From Bdellovibrio sp. (GTDB lineage Bacteria > Bdellovibrionota > Bdellovibrionia > Bdellovibrionales > Bdellovibrionaceae): a DNA stretch of 64,000 nucleotides. Both the position numbers and the translations under genes were made by a program. This document shows, one piece after another, positions 2,688 through 8,533 of the stretch; within the stretch, counting starts at the first letter, position 1, and every line of letters starts with the position of its first letter. Below the pieces are notes generated by a model that worked only from the letters and a program-made list of their open reading frames with translations, was not told the DNA's origin and searched no databases. The stretch is from the NCBI GenBank assembly GCA_014376435.1, contig JACMRL010000015.1, positions 1 to 64,000 of the forward strand, written 5' to 3'.

Positions 2688-3791
2688 CTACTTATTTGGC
2701 ACATGTAGCGTAATTGAGGTTCCTTTGTTTAGTACAGAATTAACCTCCAGAAGACCACCCATTTTTTTTAGAGCCTGAGTTGCTGAATATAAACCAATAC
2801 CATTGCCTTCTTCACTTTTTCCAAAGGAAATCTCTCTTAGTCCAATTACGTCAAGAATATCTTTAGGCATTCCGCGACCATTATCAGTAATGCAAATTAG
2901 AATTTTTGCTTCTGAAAGAGTTGATGTAATTTTAATTTGGCCTTTTCCTGGCTCAGTAGCATCGATTGAATTTTGAATAATATTATTTATAATAGAGTAT
3001 AAAAAATCTGGACATTTAATATTTCTAAATTTACTTTCACGAATAAATTTAAATTTCCTCTGAAGCGACTCAGATTTTAGTTTGTATTCGCTTTCAAGTT
3101 GATCAATAAGTTGAGAATAATCTAAGGTTTGGTTACTGCGAGTGTCGTTTAACAGCTCTTCTGCGATTTGATTGATTTGTGATATGACTGCTATTTGAAG
3201 TTCTTTAGCTTGAACATTGTCAATTTTTGATGAAATTAAATTTAACGTAGAAAGTGGTGACCGTATATCGTGCGCTAATTTTCTGGATAAATTTATTTTA
3301 AGCTCTTGAGATTTGAAATAGGCGTAACTAGTATTCTTTTTTGAATAAAAATCATCAATAAATCTGTAAAAAATTAAATTTAAAAGTGCTAAACCAAAAG
3401 TTAGTAAAAATATTGTCTTAATCTGTTTCGAAATATCTATTTTATAAAAAATAGAAGTAATTTTATTTACTTTTGAGAAATCAAAAAATATTTTTTCTTC
3501 AATAACTAAGGATAATAAGCTTTTTCTCTTTTCGCTACAAAAAATTTGTATTGATTCTTGATTAAAATCATACTTAAGGTCAATTAAATTTAATGAATTG
3601 CACTGATTAATAGTTATTTCACTCAAATGGCGAACATTATTTGACAATAAATTCTCTCGAACTATTTCAGAAAAATTTTTTAAATTGTTTTTAGTCAAAT
3701 TAAACTCGTGTACTAAAAAAAGTCCACTTGCGAGCGAAATGCTTATTAAGAAAAATATGCAAGTCATCTGAACGGGCTTGATATTTTTCAT
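2688..3791 (-). CDS. membrane sensor histidine kinase (orphan)
   Basis: Last gene of the 6520-2688 operon; its ATG directly follows the stop of the YcaO-like gene. The 367-residue product has a transmembrane segment at about residues 8-28, an extracytoplasmic sensor part of about 95 residues, and a second transmembrane segment near 125-145. Then comes the kinase core. The H-box is KLAHDIRSPLS with phospho-acceptor His174. The ATPase domain has an N-box (NIIQNSIDA), a G1 box (DNGRGMP) and a G2 box (GNGIGLYSA). There is no HAMP domain, and no response regulator lies in this operon, so its partner must be elsewhere, or it shares the regulator encoded at 10392-11555. Its place after a peptide-binding protein suggests it senses the product or ligand of this operon (inference). 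Confidence 0.9.
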   Translation of the reverse strand: MKNIKPVQMTCIFFLISISLASGLFLVHEFNLTKNNLKNFSEIVRENLLSNNVRHLSEITINQCNSLNLIDLKYDFNQESIQIFCSEKRKSLLSLVIEEKIFFDFSKVNKITSIFYKIDISKQIKTIFLLTFGLALLNLIFYRFIDDFYSKKNTSYAYFKSQELKINLSRKLAHDIRSPLSTLNLISSKIDNVQAKELQIAVISQINQIAEELLNDTRSNQTLDYSQLIDQLESEYKLKSESLQRKFKFIRESKFRNIKCPDFLYSIINNIIQNSIDATEPGKGQIKITSTLSEAKILICITDNGRGMPKDILDVIGLREISFGKSEEGNGIGLYSATQALKKMGGLLEVNSVLNKGTSITLHVPNK

Positions 3792-4712
3792 TTAATCTAA
3801 AAAGTGAGGATAATTGTTTATAAATTTTCTTTCAGCAAATCCAGTATAGAGTTTTAGTAGCTGAGGTGATGTGCAACGCACAGCCCCTAGGTCAAATGGA
3901 AAAGGAATCTTTAATATTTTGTAATTGAACTCAATGTTATTTAGCTGCTCCGAACATGCGAAGCTATTAGTATTATTATTTTTGTTAAATAAAAACGAAA
4001 AATTTTTATAGTAAGGAAAATTTTTTGCAAGCTTTCCGTGATCATTGAAAGTAATATCTTTTATGTTTTTGAATTGGTCTAAAGTTATATTTTCCGAAAA
4101 AGTATTAAGATTAAAATCGTGAGAGGTAGTTGAAAGCATTTCAAAGAAAGAATGTTTTATGGCGTATGTTTGATTGGGTTTTGCGCTAAGACCAATTACA
4201 GCACCAAATTGCTGGCTGTGTTTTTCTCCTGTAGCTATGCACAGTACGCATTTTTGAGATTGGATAGATTCAGTTTCAAAAAAATTGACATTTATTGTTG
4301 AAGGAAAATAAGTATAAAAAATTTTTTCAAAAAATTTAGTGTCTTCATTACTCAAATAATTATATCCAATTAAATTAATCCAATGACGCAGAAATAAATG
4401 CCGTTCTATAAGTTCATTCTTTGCGCTTTCTTTAGAAAATTCGATAGAGTTTGAAATCGCAACACCGTTTGAATTATCTATATCATTTTCTTCCAACAAT
4501 GTGCGTTCAATAGCTTCATAAATGGCTTTAGTTATAGCAATTTCAGAGGAGTCATCAATTCCTCTGCCTTCATATTTTTGGCCATTTAATAAAATTTCAG
4601 CCGAAAAATCGAACCACTTGTTATTTAGTGATTTAATGTAATTATTCTCAAAAAAATTAAGACTATTATTAATTTTTAAGTAGTCTATGATCTGCAAAAT
4701 TTTATTCTGCAT
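3792..4712 (-). CDS. YcaO-like protein, degenerate
   Basis: A protein of about 306 residues. YcaO proteins are ATP-dependent enzymes that activate peptide-backbone amides to make azolines, thioamides and amidines in RiPPs, or act on ribosomal protein S12. Matching landmarks in family order: G-x-G before a helix, E-A-I-E-R (about residues 66-70), an N-G-x-A turn, then N-E-L-I-E-R-H (about 99-105, where the family has ELIERDA). Further on is a helix HSFFEML, where the usual ExxxxQ lacks its Gln. The tail ends in NYPHFLD and lacks the full PxPxxP of cyclodehydratases, so ATP chemistry may be altered or lost. The start chosen is ATG 4712, overlapping the stop of the upstream gene by 11 nt; an in-frame ATG at 4769 would add 19 residues and overlap by 68 nt. 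The family call is by motif order only. Confidence 0.6.
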   Translation of the reverse strand: MQNKILQIIDYLKINNSLNFFENNYIKSLNNKWFDFSAEILLNGQKYEGRGIDDSSEIAITKAIYEAIERTLLEENDIDNSNGVAISNSIEFSKESAKNELIERHLFLRHWINLIGYNYLSNEDTKFFEKIFYTYFPSTINVNFFETESIQSQKCVLCIATGEKHSQQFGAVIGLSAKPNQTYAIKHSFFEMLSTTSHDFNLNTFSENITLDQFKNIKDITFNDHGKLAKNFPYYKNFSFLFNKNNNTNSFACSEQLNNIEFNYKILKIPFPFDLGAVRCTSPQLLKLYTGFAERKFINNYPHFLD

Positions 4713-6219
4713 ACTTAGATATTTTCCAAAGTTTAGTAGAGGCAGACAGTTTTGATTGAAAAGATTCATAAGGTGCTCTAGTAATTATCGTATATGGAGA
4801 TACAAATAACGGACCAACGAGAGCTTCATTTAATATTTTGAAGTGAATCATATTGATTAGTTCTTGTTTTTTATCTTCAGATTCTGTATTTAAAAATTTT
4901 TCAAGAAGTTGTTCGGCCTCAGAATGCTCAATGGCGACAATTTGGTTGCCTAAATAATAGCTAAGTAGTGAATAGTTAACATTAAAGGCCATGTCTCCAC
5001 TTAAAAAGTATATAGATGGGCGTTTTTCGTACGTAGTTTCTAGTGGAAAATCATCTTCAAAGCGCAAATCTAAGTTTTCTATATTTTTTAAATTACTCAT
5101 GCTTTTTTCTAAACCTTTGTAGGTATGAAATATGTATTTTGATTCTATAGGGAGTTCTTCGGATGTACGCGTAGTTAGCTCTTGCTTTTGTTTTGAAGAT
5201 AATCTGCCGTCACCAGTTTTTGTTAGAAACTGATCAGTTTCATCAGTACCCGCTGATAGCGGGTACTGATGAATTAGGATTTCGCGTATTTTGTTAATAA
5301 GAGAGGTACGCTGCGCAGAAGACGTGGTTGAAATTATTTTTGGCCCAAAGGCAATCATGAATAACTTAATTTGATTTGTGTAAAATATATTGAAGATATT
5401 TGTAGATTCAAATTCTTTCGCTTTGGCTGCGCTTATATTATTAGATGTCGTTATTAGATCAATTTTATTGTCAATTAAGTCGTTTAATAATTCATCTGAC
5501 GATACACTGCCAATAATTTCTACGGTGTCTGGGAAATTAAGCGAAAAAGTAAAATTAGTATTTTTCTTTAGTGTCGTATTTTTACTAAAACTAGAAATTG
5601 AAAAAGCGCCAGTGGTATTTGTGTAGTCAGTAATTTTCAAACTTTTTGGATCAACTGCGCTTTTTGGTACAATTCCATATTCTGTTGAAGCAAGAATCTT
5701 TAAGAGAACCTCCGCTTTAGAGTTAGAGATTGTATGTAGTATAAGATTTTTTTCATCAACAATTTCGATACTATCGCAAGGATCATTAATATTTTTAAAA
5801 TCTTCTGAGCACGAAAGAAATTTATCCAACTTTGCGTGAGTATTCGTATCTAGCGAGAGTAAACGTTTTAAGCTGAATGCGACGTCTTGAGCAGTGATTT
5901 TGGTTCCGTTGGAAGTAAGTGAGTCCTGCAATTCAATAAATATATTATTATCTTTAATGAAAAAAGTTTTAGCTAGCCATGACTTTGGCGTAGCATCATC
6001 ATAAGTTATTAATCGTGCGTATAAGTTATCGCAGAGAATAGCTTTGTCGAGAGTATCTATTTTTGCAGGATCAATACTGATTTTTTGCGGATTGGTGACC
6101 ATTCCCATTCGTATATTCATATTCGGATCCTTCGAAAATAAAATAAAGTATATCATAAGAAAAATACAGGAACAAAAAGCTAACAGCAAGGCGATGTATA
6201 AATTATGTTTATCGACCAA
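4702..6219 (-). CDS. peptide-type extracellular solute-binding protein (SBP_bac_5 family)
   Basis: A 505-residue protein with an N-terminal hydrophobic segment (about residues 8-30), either an uncleaved anchor or a signal. The rest has the layout of dipeptide/oligopeptide-binding proteins of ABC importers: an early DPAKIDTLDKAILCDNLYAR (the family has DP....D.....N.y..L), then ALTSNGTKITAQDVAFSLKR-like text, where the family has G..ltA.DV.fSl.R. No permease or ATPase gene follows, so it may be a receptor rather than an importer part. It starts at TTG 6219, overlapping the small secreted-protein gene by 11 nt. It ends inside the start region of the YcaO-like gene, so the operon looks translationally coupled. 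Proteins of this family can feed ligands to sensor kinases, and one is two genes downstream. Confidence 0.8.
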   Translation of the reverse strand: MVDKHNLYIALLLAFCSCIFLMIYFILFSKDPNMNIRMGMVTNPQKISIDPAKIDTLDKAILCDNLYARLITYDDATPKSWLAKTFFIKDNNIFIELQDSLTSNGTKITAQDVAFSLKRLLSLDTNTHAKLDKFLSCSEDFKNINDPCDSIEIVDEKNLILHTISNSKAEVLLKILASTEYGIVPKSAVDPKSLKITDYTNTTGAFSISSFSKNTTLKKNTNFTFSLNFPDTVEIIGSVSSDELLNDLIDNKIDLITTSNNISAAKAKEFESTNIFNIFYTNQIKLFMIAFGPKIISTTSSAQRTSLINKIREILIHQYPLSAGTDETDQFLTKTGDGRLSSKQKQELTTRTSEELPIESKYIFHTYKGLEKSMSNLKNIENLDLRFEDDFPLETTYEKRPSIYFLSGDMAFNVNYSLLSYYLGNQIVAIEHSEAEQLLEKFLNTESEDKKQELINMIHFKILNEALVGPLFVSPYTIITRAPYESFQSKLSASTKLWKISKYAE

Positions 6220-6520
6220 GTTTATTTCCGGTGTCGCGTCGTATAATAGGAACCGCGCGGCAACGTGTGCCCGTTTCGCTTCCTGTAGAAGTAAATCTGT
6301 CTTGAATTAGTCCCTTTTCTTTCAAATGAGAATATAGATCACTTTCTATATAAATTAGTTTTTTTTCGGGCGAGGTATTTCTTTGTAAGGAGCATATAAA
6401 TTTGTCTGAGCTAGATAGGGGTGATTGGTTGGGCCAGCAAATTAATTGCGCAAGACTTTGTTCAGAAAAAATACTTAAAATTGAGATCGTTGATAATAAT
6501 TTGGCAAGTTTGACTTTCAT
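6209..6520 (-). CDS. small secreted protein, first gene of the YcaO operon
   Basis: A 103-residue product with a clear Sec signal peptide (Lys-rich start, hydrophobic core, cleavage after S-L-A near residue 24). The mature part of about 79 residues has three cysteines and a basic, Ser/Thr-rich tail (TSTGSETGTRCRAVPIIRR). It has a strong Shine-Dalgarno (AAAGGAGTAATT-ATG) and a possible -10 (TAAAAT) about 40 nt upstream. No family was recognised. It leads an operon with a peptide-binding protein, a YcaO-like protein and a kinase, so it could be a precursor peptide, a pheromone or a periplasmic partner of the receptor. A Sec signal is unusual for a YcaO substrate, which would normally be modified in the cytoplasm. 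Confidence 0.7.
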   Translation of the reverse strand: MKVKLAKLLSTISILSIFSEQSLAQLICWPNQSPLSSSDKFICSLQRNTSPEKKLIYIESDLYSHLKEKGLIQDRFTSTGSETGTRCRAVPIIRRDTGNKLGR

Positions 6521-6795
6521 AATTACTCCTTTTAATAGATTAAATCAGCTAAAGTATTTTACTATGCAAAACTTTGGCCAATTAAATTCGGTCTTTATGA
6601 AAGATAAGATTTATATTACGAATGTCTTCTAATATATGAGATCTGACGTATCTTAGTTATTCGAATGTAATGCTCATTGAATTTTATATAAGATATACAT
6701 TTTTTTGTACAATATGGTGCTCTTTAGATACCAGTAACTATTCCTAACTAAGCCCTCTTGCTTTATTTGTCTAGACCTATACTAGACTTTTGGTG

Positions 6796-6844: not shown

Positions 6845-8533
6845 ATGAGTAAACTAGATCAACAAATGCGTTCTAAAAGATTTAAGGTAAAGGCCGAGGC
6901 CAACTTAATATTAGTTGTAGATTTTAATACGGGCGAAAAGCTTAAATTTAAAATAACGGATTGTTCTCAGACGGGAATTCGAGGGTTTTGCGAAACTGAA
7001 CTTTCTCCGGAAAGTCTTCCTGAGCAAGGTTCGATTGCCACTGCTTCAAAACTTCTTTGGGGTCAGTCCGAATATGGATTAGGCAGATTAGTTTTTAGAC
7101 GCGCGTTTCCTAATCCTAAAGGATTAGATTTTGCGTTTTCAACTGTTGATATTAAGATTCCAATCGCTGGTGCAATTAGTAAACTTTTAGATTTTAAATT
7201 TGATCAAGTTGATGATGGTAAAACTGAAGAGCTTAGTTCAGAAAAATTCTCATTGGCTCACTTTGTTGAGAATGAATATTCAAACATAGATCTTTTTGAT
7301 CGTATGCGAAAATTTGATACTTTTCGTGTCCAATGGGAACGTAGTCAAAAATATGGTTATAAAACGGTTCGCGAAGCTTCAAAGGGCGAACGAGTTAATT
7401 TAAGTCGAACTAGAAAAAATAATCGTAGAGATTATATCGTTATGGGATCAAATGATTATTTAGGTCTTGGTGCCCATCCTGAAGTTGTTAGTGCGGCTCA
7501 CAAAGCTTTAGATCTATATGGATTTGGTTCCACGGGATCACCTGTTACTACAGGAACTACAGACTTACATAATCAACTGTGTGATCAAATTGCCAAAATT
7601 CATAAAAAAGAAGCAGCGATACTTTTTAACTCTGGATACGCAGCAAATATTGGTATTATCTCAGCTGTTACAGCTGCGAATGATCTTATTGTCGCTGACA
7701 TGCTTTGTCATGCGTCTATTCAAGATGCGATGCAAATGTCTCGTGCTACCTCGCGATTCTTTAAACATAACGACGTAGCTCATCTTGAGCAAATTTTATC
7801 TAATGAAAGACAAAACTATAACGGTTGTCTTGTTATCACTGAAGGTGTTTTTTCAATGGATGGCGATACGGCTAAATTGGATGACATATATTATTTAGCT
7901 AGAAAATATAACTGCAGAATAATGGTGGATCAGGCACATTGCTTCGGAGTTGTAGGGCCAAATGGATTAGGTATTTGCGAAAAGTACAATCTTTTGCGCG
8001 AAACAGATATTATTATGGGTACATTCTCAAAAATCTGTGGCGCCATTGGTGGCTTTGCAACGGGCTCTGTGGAATTTATTGAATGGCTTAGAGCATTCAG
8101 TCGTGCACAAGTTTTTTCAGTGAGTTTGGCCCCATCAACTGTTGCGGCAGTAAGTAAATCACTTGAATTATTCACAGCTAATAAAGACCTTCTAAATAGT
8201 TTGCACAGTAATATTGATCACTTCGTCAAAAATTTAGAATCCCTTGGCTATAAATTTCCACATAAACAGGAAAGTGCAGTCATCCCAGTTGTTGTTGGTG
8301 ATGAAACAAAACTAGGAATTATGTACCAAAGTCTATTGGATGACGGCGTACTATGTATTCCTATCGTTTATCCAGCCGTTAGCAGAAAAAATTGTAGATT
8401 TAGATTTACGCTAATGGCTACTCATACGAAATCAGATTTAGACTACGCTACTTCTTGTTTAGAAAAAGCGATGTTGAGAGCTAATTTTTCTTTTGCCGAT
8501 TTACACAAGGAAGAAACGAAAAAGGCCGCTTAG
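6845..8533 (+). CDS. PilZ-like domain fused to a PLP-dependent alpha-oxoamine synthase
   Basis: The 562-residue product is a fusion. Residues 1-about 110 look like PilZ: the D39-C-S41-Q-T-G44 motif (DxSxxG) is intact, but the RxxxR motif is reduced to R9-S-K-R12. From about residue 150 it is a fold-type I alpha-oxoamine synthase, the family of KBL, BioF, serine palmitoyltransferase, CqsA and LqsA. It has the NDYLGLG motif, a Gly-rich substrate loop (GFGSTGSPVTTGTTDLH), D362-Q-A-H365 (the family usually has DEAH) and the Schiff-base lysine K396 in TFSKICGAIGG. Such enzymes condense an acyl-CoA with an amino acid or similar amine. Substrates cannot be read from the sequence. Two bases separate it from the sensor-kinase gene, which favours a signal-synthase role, but a sphingolipid-type or biotin-type role is possible. 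Confidence 0.85.
   Translation: MSKLDQQMRSKRFKVKAEANLILVVDFNTGEKLKFKITDCSQTGIRGFCETELSPESLPEQGSIATASKLLWGQSEYGLGRLVFRRAFPNPKGLDFAFSTVDIKIPIAGAISKLLDFKFDQVDDGKTEELSSEKFSLAHFVENEYSNIDLFDRMRKFDTFRVQWERSQKYGYKTVREASKGERVNLSRTRKNNRRDYIVMGSNDYLGLGAHPEVVSAAHKALDLYGFGSTGSPVTTGTTDLHNQLCDQIAKIHKKEAAILFNSGYAANIGIISAVTAANDLIVADMLCHASIQDAMQMSRATSRFFKHNDVAHLEQILSNERQNYNGCLVITEGVFSMDGDTAKLDDIYYLARKYNCRIMVDQAHCFGVVGPNGLGICEKYNLLRETDIIMGTFSKICGAIGGFATGSVEFIEWLRAFSRAQVFSVSLAPSTVAAVSKSLELFTANKDLLNSLHSNIDHFVKNLESLGYKFPHKQESAVIPVVVGDETKLGIMYQSLLDDGVLCIPIVYPAVSRKNCRFRFTLMATHTKSDLDYATSCLEKAMLRANFSFADLHKEETKKAA

Follow-up and report, generated by a model that had tools for sequence, protein, structure and literature searches.

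A recurrent gene cassette joining a YcaO-fold protein, an OppA-like binding protein and a histidine kinase in Bdellovibrio-related bacteria: a candidate peptide-signalling system

The window analysed here is a 64,000-nucleotide stretch of a Bdellovibrio sp. genome (contig JACMRL010000015.1), and it carries, on its minus strand, adjoining genes for a small exported protein, a substrate-binding protein (SBP), a YcaO-fold protein and a histidine kinase (HK). The question raised by this locus is whether the four genes belong together and, if they do, what they might do. The first-pass annotation, made from the letters of the window, had proposed that they form one operon; all four open reading frames (ORFs) are present and the set is real, and it is more than chance because the same gene set recurs across the phylum. 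We consider it reasonably probable that the operon exemplifies a cassette found throughout the phylum for an exported pheromone resembling ribosomally synthesised and post-translationally modified peptides (RiPPs), in which a signal would run from peptide to enzyme, SBP, HK and sigma-54 regulator, and which would induce itself. The genes and sites are as follows.

6209..6520, minus strand: small exported protein gene; 103 amino acids (aa), Sec-exported by prediction, candidate precursor or pheromone
4702..6219, minus strand: SBP gene; TTG start, SBP_bac_5, OppA fold, predicted to be membrane-anchored
3792..4769, minus strand: ORF of the YcaO-fold protein; probable start ATG at 4712
2688..3791, minus strand: sensor HK gene; HDIRSP H-box, HATPase_c, two N-terminal hydrophobic stretches
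6566..6580, minus strand: sigma-54 -24/-12-like promoter, TGGCCAAAGTTTTGC; ends 45 nt upstream of the ATG of the small gene
6260..6262, minus strand: Cys87 codon of the small protein; probably corresponds to the Cys/Ser at the C-terminus in relatives

The small gene overlaps the SBP gene by 11 nt, and the YcaO and HK genes abut. The SBP and YcaO ORFs overlap by 68 nt, or by 11 nt if the YcaO protein starts at the ATG at 4712; we regard this start as probable, and the family profile match begins near that ATG.

Conservation of the gene set

All locus comparisons were made within one phylum, that of the Bdellovibrio-related bacteria. A first search found YcaO relatives in 34 of 147 genomes (the window's own genome counted), and a search of the phylum with a YcaO profile gave matches at E <= 0.001 in 194 of 368 genomes. 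We examined 86 loci, made up of all 46 non-self matches with wide flanks, the window, and 39 further loci picked by hand, with their neighbours unseen, down the profile ranking (E about 2e-77 to 5e-15) from part of the listed matches; a further region taken with them proved to be a 10-base placeholder and was left out. Taking genes to be beside each other when they lie on the same strand within 900 nt, an SBP gene was found beside YcaO in 79 of the 86 loci and an HK gene as well in 76 (window counted). The first-pass annotation had made its reading depend on the genes being kept together in relatives, and these counts show that they are. The order was SBP-YcaO-HK in 58 of the 79 and YcaO-SBP-HK in 18, with no adjacent HK detected in 3. 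The remaining seven loci comprise one at a contig end, which has an HK (L060), and six with YcaO in other contexts (L122, L125, L131, L136, L145 and L146).

The distances among YcaO, SBP and HK proteins correlate with one another (Mantel 0.78-0.84, n=74), to which species history may contribute in part. Over ~5.7 kb, four cassettes share 89.5-91.6% DNA identity; three of them belong to one genus and the fourth to another. The match spans from just 5' of the regulator gene to the end of the HK gene, and continues further in one of the three comparisons only. Judging from these alignments, the five genes form one unit, which is perhaps transferable. Plasmid carriage was considered and set aside, the YcaO of one relative having given no plasmid match in a search of plasmid sequences only.

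The small exported protein

Leaving out three cassettes at contig ends, 76 of the 79 could be tested for a small gene, the window included. A small ORF with a hydrophobic N-terminus, ending near the SBP start, was found in 67 of these 76 as against 44 of 230 control genes, and one that also has a Cys in its last 22 residues in 54 as against 11 of the 230. A short precursor-type gene beside a modifying enzyme, as is expected of a RiPP locus, is thus seen in 67 of 76 cassettes. In seven pairs of relatives with Ks < 1, the ratio of non-synonymous to synonymous substitution rates (Ka/Ks) was 0.15-0.33, while the window ORF lacks a close relative; on this comparison, the small ORF of the relatives is a coding sequence under purifying selection.

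The window protein has zero Pfam matches, and a hidden Markov model seeded with it found no other match. As far as such comparisons go, the small proteins diverge fast and are linked across cassettes by position and form. Typical tails of relatives are SSICVG, GGTICF, NPTCW and GGASCG, and several Cys-less tails carry Ser or Thr at a seemingly equivalent place (PSSIG, PTTIS); in L053 and L132 a Cys motif lies further inside. In the window protein, Cys87 lies within ..GSETGTRCRAVPII.. and the tail reads GTRCRAV; its correspondence to the Cys of relatives was judged by eye from the tail motif, with no significant alignment. The first-pass annotation had overlooked this protein as the likely substrate and signal. 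Nor had it noted the relatives' sigma-54 regulator, the sigma-54-like site or the replacement of YcaO by other RiPP enzymes, all described below.

Variants of the small gene were also seen. Two tandem exported small ORFs precede one SBP gene in L043 (8914-9692), precursor bodies appear duplicated in L062 and L063, and the small ORF of L038 (9464-9748) ends before the expected Cys tail, with a Cys-containing stretch in another frame.

The YcaO-fold protein

The fold, on which the first-pass annotation had also made its reading depend, holds. The Pfam YcaO family (PF02624) matches the protein at 7.7e-8, with 32.5 bits against a cut-off of 25.7. An AlphaFold2 model built on 46 aligned sequences has a mean predicted local distance difference test score (pLDDT) of 90.8, and each of its first 40 PDB hits in Foldseek is a YcaO or YcaO-domain protein, with a best E of 3.9e-10 but modest query TM-scores of 0.37-0.57. 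The family profile matches MJ1094, McbD, TruD, MusD, the M. kandleri YcaO, LynD and the E. coli YcaO, with E values from 3.5e-14 to 5.6e-5.

Residues E85, R89, G102, E119, E122 and R123 are invariant in 76 of 76 cassettes and E88 is kept in 75; E119, E122 and R123 align with E199, E202 and R203 of the E. coli protein. In characterised YcaO proteins the conserved acidic and Arg residues bind ATP and Mg. It had been suggested earlier that, with the Gln of the ExxxxQ motif lost, the window protein may be a binder and not an enzyme. The comparison does not support this: of the characterised YcaO proteins, MJ1094 has His and McbD has Gly at the position of E. coli Q195, and the acidic and Arg positions are kept in 75 to 76 of 76 cassettes; the notion of a pure binding protein on account of the lost Gln was therefore dropped. 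Of the circuit first proposed, gene comparison supports a conserved unit that pairs the YcaO with a small exported protein and the kinase with the SBP.

Exchange of the modifying enzyme

A search of 61 genomes with the SBP family, in which 20 further loci were read, revealed SBP-HK units with enzymes other than YcaO. L223 and L220 encode DUF4135 proteins, of the LanM dehydratase type (1e-12 and 6e-8, above the Pfam cut-off); the full-length LanM model gave 2.1e-10 and 6.2e-7 on these two, far below its whole-protein cut-off, as is expected for a lone domain. L217 encodes an aKG-HExxH peptide beta-hydroxylase (6.1e-13, 49.2 bits against a cut-off of 40). Across the phylum, DUF4135 was found in 20 of 368 genomes and HExxH in 132 of 368, many of the latter belonging to a longer, separate class; its open frames span about 400-500 aa, and many genomes of a single family (f16) contain it.

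A same-strand SBP gene lies within 3.5 kb in 14 of 20 DUF4135 loci, 12 of them with an HK; six of the 20 had been chosen with a nearby SBP known, and among the 14 others nine have one. The 20 leave out two full-length LanM genes (in G102) and one DUF4135 gene (G040:C41). For short HExxH loci the count is 15 of 20, 13 with an HK, where three of the 20 had been chosen for a nearby SBP hit and 12 of the 17 others have one. Three of the six DUF4135 loci without a same-strand SBP (L285, L286 and L302) have one nearby on the opposite strand with an HK beside it. Six loci (L311, L317, L318, L319, L320 and L322) show the order response regulator (RR)-small gene-SBP-HExxH-HK, exactly that of the YcaO cassettes, and in all six a sigma-54 site matching at 10 of 10 bases precedes the RR gene.

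The tail of the small protein differs with the enzyme. A tail Cys is present in one of 21 exported small ORFs of other-enzyme units, as against 54 of 67 in YcaO units; the 21 were chosen by hand and include near-copies, so that Fisher values overstate independence, and the exported 156-aa ORF of L292 was excluded because it did not resemble the others. Among the hand-chosen loci, L295 is without a same-strand SBP and that of L220 is a fragment. Eight SBP loci were counted as enzyme-less, since their stretches contain no YcaO and their genomes gave neither a DUF4135 nor a HExxH match (L204, L209, L210, L211, L213, L214, L218 and L222). They have no exported small ORF, and in four of the eight the SBP has no HK beside it either.

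On an SBP tree of 116 rows, made by a quick method and with long branches flagged, the enzyme labels require seven changes, where the minimum is three and shuffles average 34.6. The enzymes thus seem to follow SBP lineages, with more than one exchange along the way. A single leader family shared by all enzyme classes was considered and rejected as not significant (best E 0.027). In L206, L208, L212 and L215 a membrane-type protein of ~380-390 aa is encoded upstream of the SBP-HK unit, without a Pfam match in the two tested, and DUF4135 lies nearby (on the other strand in L212); an exported precursor is not evident in these four.

Binding protein, kinase and probable sigma-54 regulation

The SBP matches Pfam SBP_bac_5 at 5.6e-14. 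Its AlphaFold2 model (pLDDT 89.6) has an N-terminal helix at residues 4-28, and the best PDB hit of the model is OppA with a bound tripeptide (E 2.8e-25). The helix likely anchors the SBP in the membrane, to judge from the model. No transporter genes are present in the window operon, with no permease search made in the other loci; an ABC-ATPase signature, sought with a crude regular expression, was present in the flanks of just two of 79 loci. Because of its OppA-like fold, the probable anchoring helix and the lack of transporter genes in the operon, the SBP fits a receptor rather than an importer.

In the HK, the H-box HDIRSP and the two N-terminal hydrophobic stretches were read off the sequence; Pfam gives HATPase_c at 1.8e-19 and HisKA at just E 0.38. 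None of the NCBIfam matches listed for the four window proteins (for the HK, the best 25 of 67) reached its cut-off. No response regulator adjoins the window HK. An NtrC-type regulator gene adjoins 45 of 79 cassettes on the same strand; it precedes the small gene in 31 of them and lies at the HK end in 14, and the receiver-sigma54-Fis domain make-up was confirmed in one of these regulators. The genome of the window encodes RpoN and gave nine NtrC-type matches that are strong, with E values of 2.5e-55 or lower; five of the nine show no HK in their short flanks.

Sigma-54 sites were scored against TGGCAC-N5-TTGC (10 consensus bases), with the upstream regions of 168 genes as control. Sites with at least 8 of 10 bases were found in 19 of 76 operons versus 8 of 168 controls, and sites with all 10 in 7 of 76 versus 1 of 168. 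Relatives have such sites in the same kind of place as the window, whose own site at 6566-6580 scores 8 of 10, a score equalled or exceeded in 8 of the 168 controls and so weak on its own. Among other-enzyme units, 13 of 17 have a site, these 17 having been listed by hand.

Proposed mechanism and alternatives

On our proposal, the small protein would begin with a Sec signal peptide, continue with a body that acts as the leader and end in a short core whose key residue is Cys or, at times, Ser or Thr. Before export the YcaO protein would modify this core in an ATP-dependent manner, most likely at the backbone of Cys, Ser or Thr (an azoline or similar). Sec export and periplasmic processing would then release the core, and the anchored OppA-like SBP would bind the modified peptide. 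The loaded SBP would switch the HK, which would phosphorylate an NtrC-type regulator; together with sigma-54 RNA polymerase, the regulator would activate the operon, which would thereby induce itself in the manner of quorum sensing, along with further targets. For the window copy, the regulator would be encoded elsewhere and not next to the kinase. For the phylum at large, we lean, by a narrower measure, towards cell-cell signalling through an exported ribosomal peptide, exchangeable modifying enzymes (YcaO, LanM-type dehydratase, aKG-HExxH hydroxylase), an anchored OppA-like receptor, a kinase and a self-inducing sigma-54 regulator, with several cassettes serving as several private channels. 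We consider the exported, modified peptide presented by the SBP to the HK the most economical account; the most telling support for it is that three unrelated RiPP enzyme families share the slot by one receptor module and that the tail of the small protein tracks the enzyme.

Several observations weigh against this proposal. At the positions of E. coli E191 and Q195 the window protein has F and S and the family is variable, so that activity is uncertain. No RRE, E1-like or TfuA partner was seen among the four window proteins in Pfam or NCBIfam, and no systematic search for one was made. The window copy has no recognised ortholog, YcaO identities being at most about 30% over the alignment, and 34 of 79 cassettes, the window included, have no adjacent regulator that was found. 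The small-ORF rule is lenient, as its 44 control genes indicate; 9 of 76 cassettes fail it, although inspection by eye reveals a small ORF in three of these (L036, L037 and L039). A Cys in the last 22 residues is missing from 13 of the 67 small ORFs. Among the other enzymes, no same-strand SBP lies within 3.5 kb in 6 of 20 DUF4135 and 5 of 20 short HExxH loci, and in a DUF4135 subgroup (among them L206, L208 and L215) the gene upstream of the SBP encodes a membrane protein, with no precursor in evidence. Precursor bodies compared across enzyme classes gave a best E of 0.027, with shuffles from 0.42, and their homology is not provable.

In one alternative, the YcaO would be a pseudo-enzyme that merely binds the precursor, as a chaperone or export gate, and the signal would be the unmodified peptide. 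In line with it are the two positions not kept and the several YcaO copies that are short (about 265 aa), without the C-terminal part. We think it unlikely, given that six acidic and Arg positions are kept in 75 to 76 of 76 cassettes, that the same slot is taken by other modifying enzymes and that the tail residue tracks the enzyme type. Alternatively, the small protein could be a periplasmic helper of the SBP or kinase and not a ligand, the SBP sensing an outside peptide, for example one derived from prey. The small protein is often 90-170 aa, which is long for a pheromone, and OppA-like proteins accept many peptides; yet such a helper would leave unexplained why the operon includes an enzyme of the peptide-modifying kind, why other RiPP enzymes can replace it and why the C-terminal Cys tracks the enzyme, and we give this alternative the same low standing. 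An antimicrobial or metal-binding product, with the SBP-HK pair only regulating or sensing stress, is the least probable. In its favour, bacteriocins are usually self-inducing too. Sec-exported Cys peptides with a modifying enzyme also resemble bufferins (PMC12452194), but there is usually one short tail Cys instead of the multi-Cys patterns of bufferins, and the SBP is of the peptide type. A role in anti-phage defence was considered as well and rejected, none of the four proteins having a PADLOC match at E 0.01.

Comparison with known systems

The nisin NisRK type is an autoinducing RiPP two-component system. The proposed cassette would share with it a ribosomal peptide, a modifying enzyme, an HK and, in the 45 of 79 cassettes with an adjacent one, an RR, with self-induction likely. 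It differs in using Sec export and not a dedicated ABC exporter, in having an SBP as receptor, a sigma-54 regulator and an exchangeable enzyme (YcaO, DUF4135 or HExxH), and in its Gram-negative hosts; no dedicated ABC exporter or peptidase of the nisin type is present in the window operon. LuxP-LuxQ is an SBP-HK receptor pair, in which a periplasmic binding protein presents the ligand to the kinase, as we propose here. The SBP of the cassette is, in contrast, of the OppA type, and its ligand is probably encoded in the same operon and modified by an enzyme. YcaO-TfuA clusters for thioamide or azoline RiPPs likewise have a YcaO gene adjoining a small peptide gene, but in the cassette the precursor would be exported, the SBP and HK are in the operon, and a TfuA or cyclodehydratase partner was not seen.

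Bufferins, RiPPs made by multinuclear non-haem iron-dependent oxidases (MNIOs), resemble the proposed system in that their precursor contains Cys, bears a Sec signal peptide and undergoes modification prior to export (PMC12452194). The enzyme of the cassette, however, is a YcaO, an SBP-HK-RR module is attached, and no match to an MNIO enzyme or DUF2063 partner was found among the four window proteins in Pfam or NCBIfam. One of the Bacteroidales RiPP clusters holds an HK and an RR beside the RiPP genes, as do those cassettes with an adjacent RR; these clusters differ in their peptidase transporters and radical S-adenosylmethionine enzymes, and the term 'binding protein' is absent from that paper (PMC10352776). 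A further paper mentions YcaO in general and Bdellovibrionota just as a phylum label (PMC9426513). No description of the YcaO/SBP/HK set was found in the open literature, which is weak evidence given that most subscription papers fall outside that scope. Neither the combination nor the exchangeable enzyme was described in the literature consulted; functionally the system would work like autoinducing peptide systems.

Flanking genes and YcaO genes in other contexts

Both neighbours of the operon are on the opposite strand: a gene with a FliG_C domain at 1931-2602, and a gene at 6845-8533 with a Pfam Aminotran_1_2 match, whose product we take to be alpha-oxoamine-synthase-like. The latter is a divergently oriented gene for a pyridoxal-phosphate enzyme with an extra N-terminal part, and it is followed by a second histidine kinase gene and, by eye, a response-regulator-like gene.

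Some YcaO genes outside the cassette also had small ORFs near them. In L146 (1946-4169; genome G010, of the same genus as the window) a YcaO gene is accompanied by one for a TfuA-like protein and one for a candidate precursor of 55 aa in which GTMG motifs recur, and the locus resembles a thioamide-type RiPP cluster. In L131 (6500-10764) a 155-aa ORF with the Cys-rich tail GCCGCYSSGC lies ~3 kb from the YcaO gene, and RiPP-like small ORFs are near the YcaO genes of L136 and L122.

Significance

If the proposal is true, it would connect the chemistry of RiPPs with two-component systems in a phylum of Gram-negative bacteria that is known for predators, and many of the phylum's orphan genes for YcaO, short HExxH and truncated LanM-type proteins would gain a function. 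Parallel channels are possible because some genomes have up to six YcaO-profile matches, and one (G046) holds five cassettes (L049, L055, L058, L064 and L074). The cassettes would then constitute matched sets of peptide, enzyme and receptor, with which the coordination of such bacteria would become directly testable.

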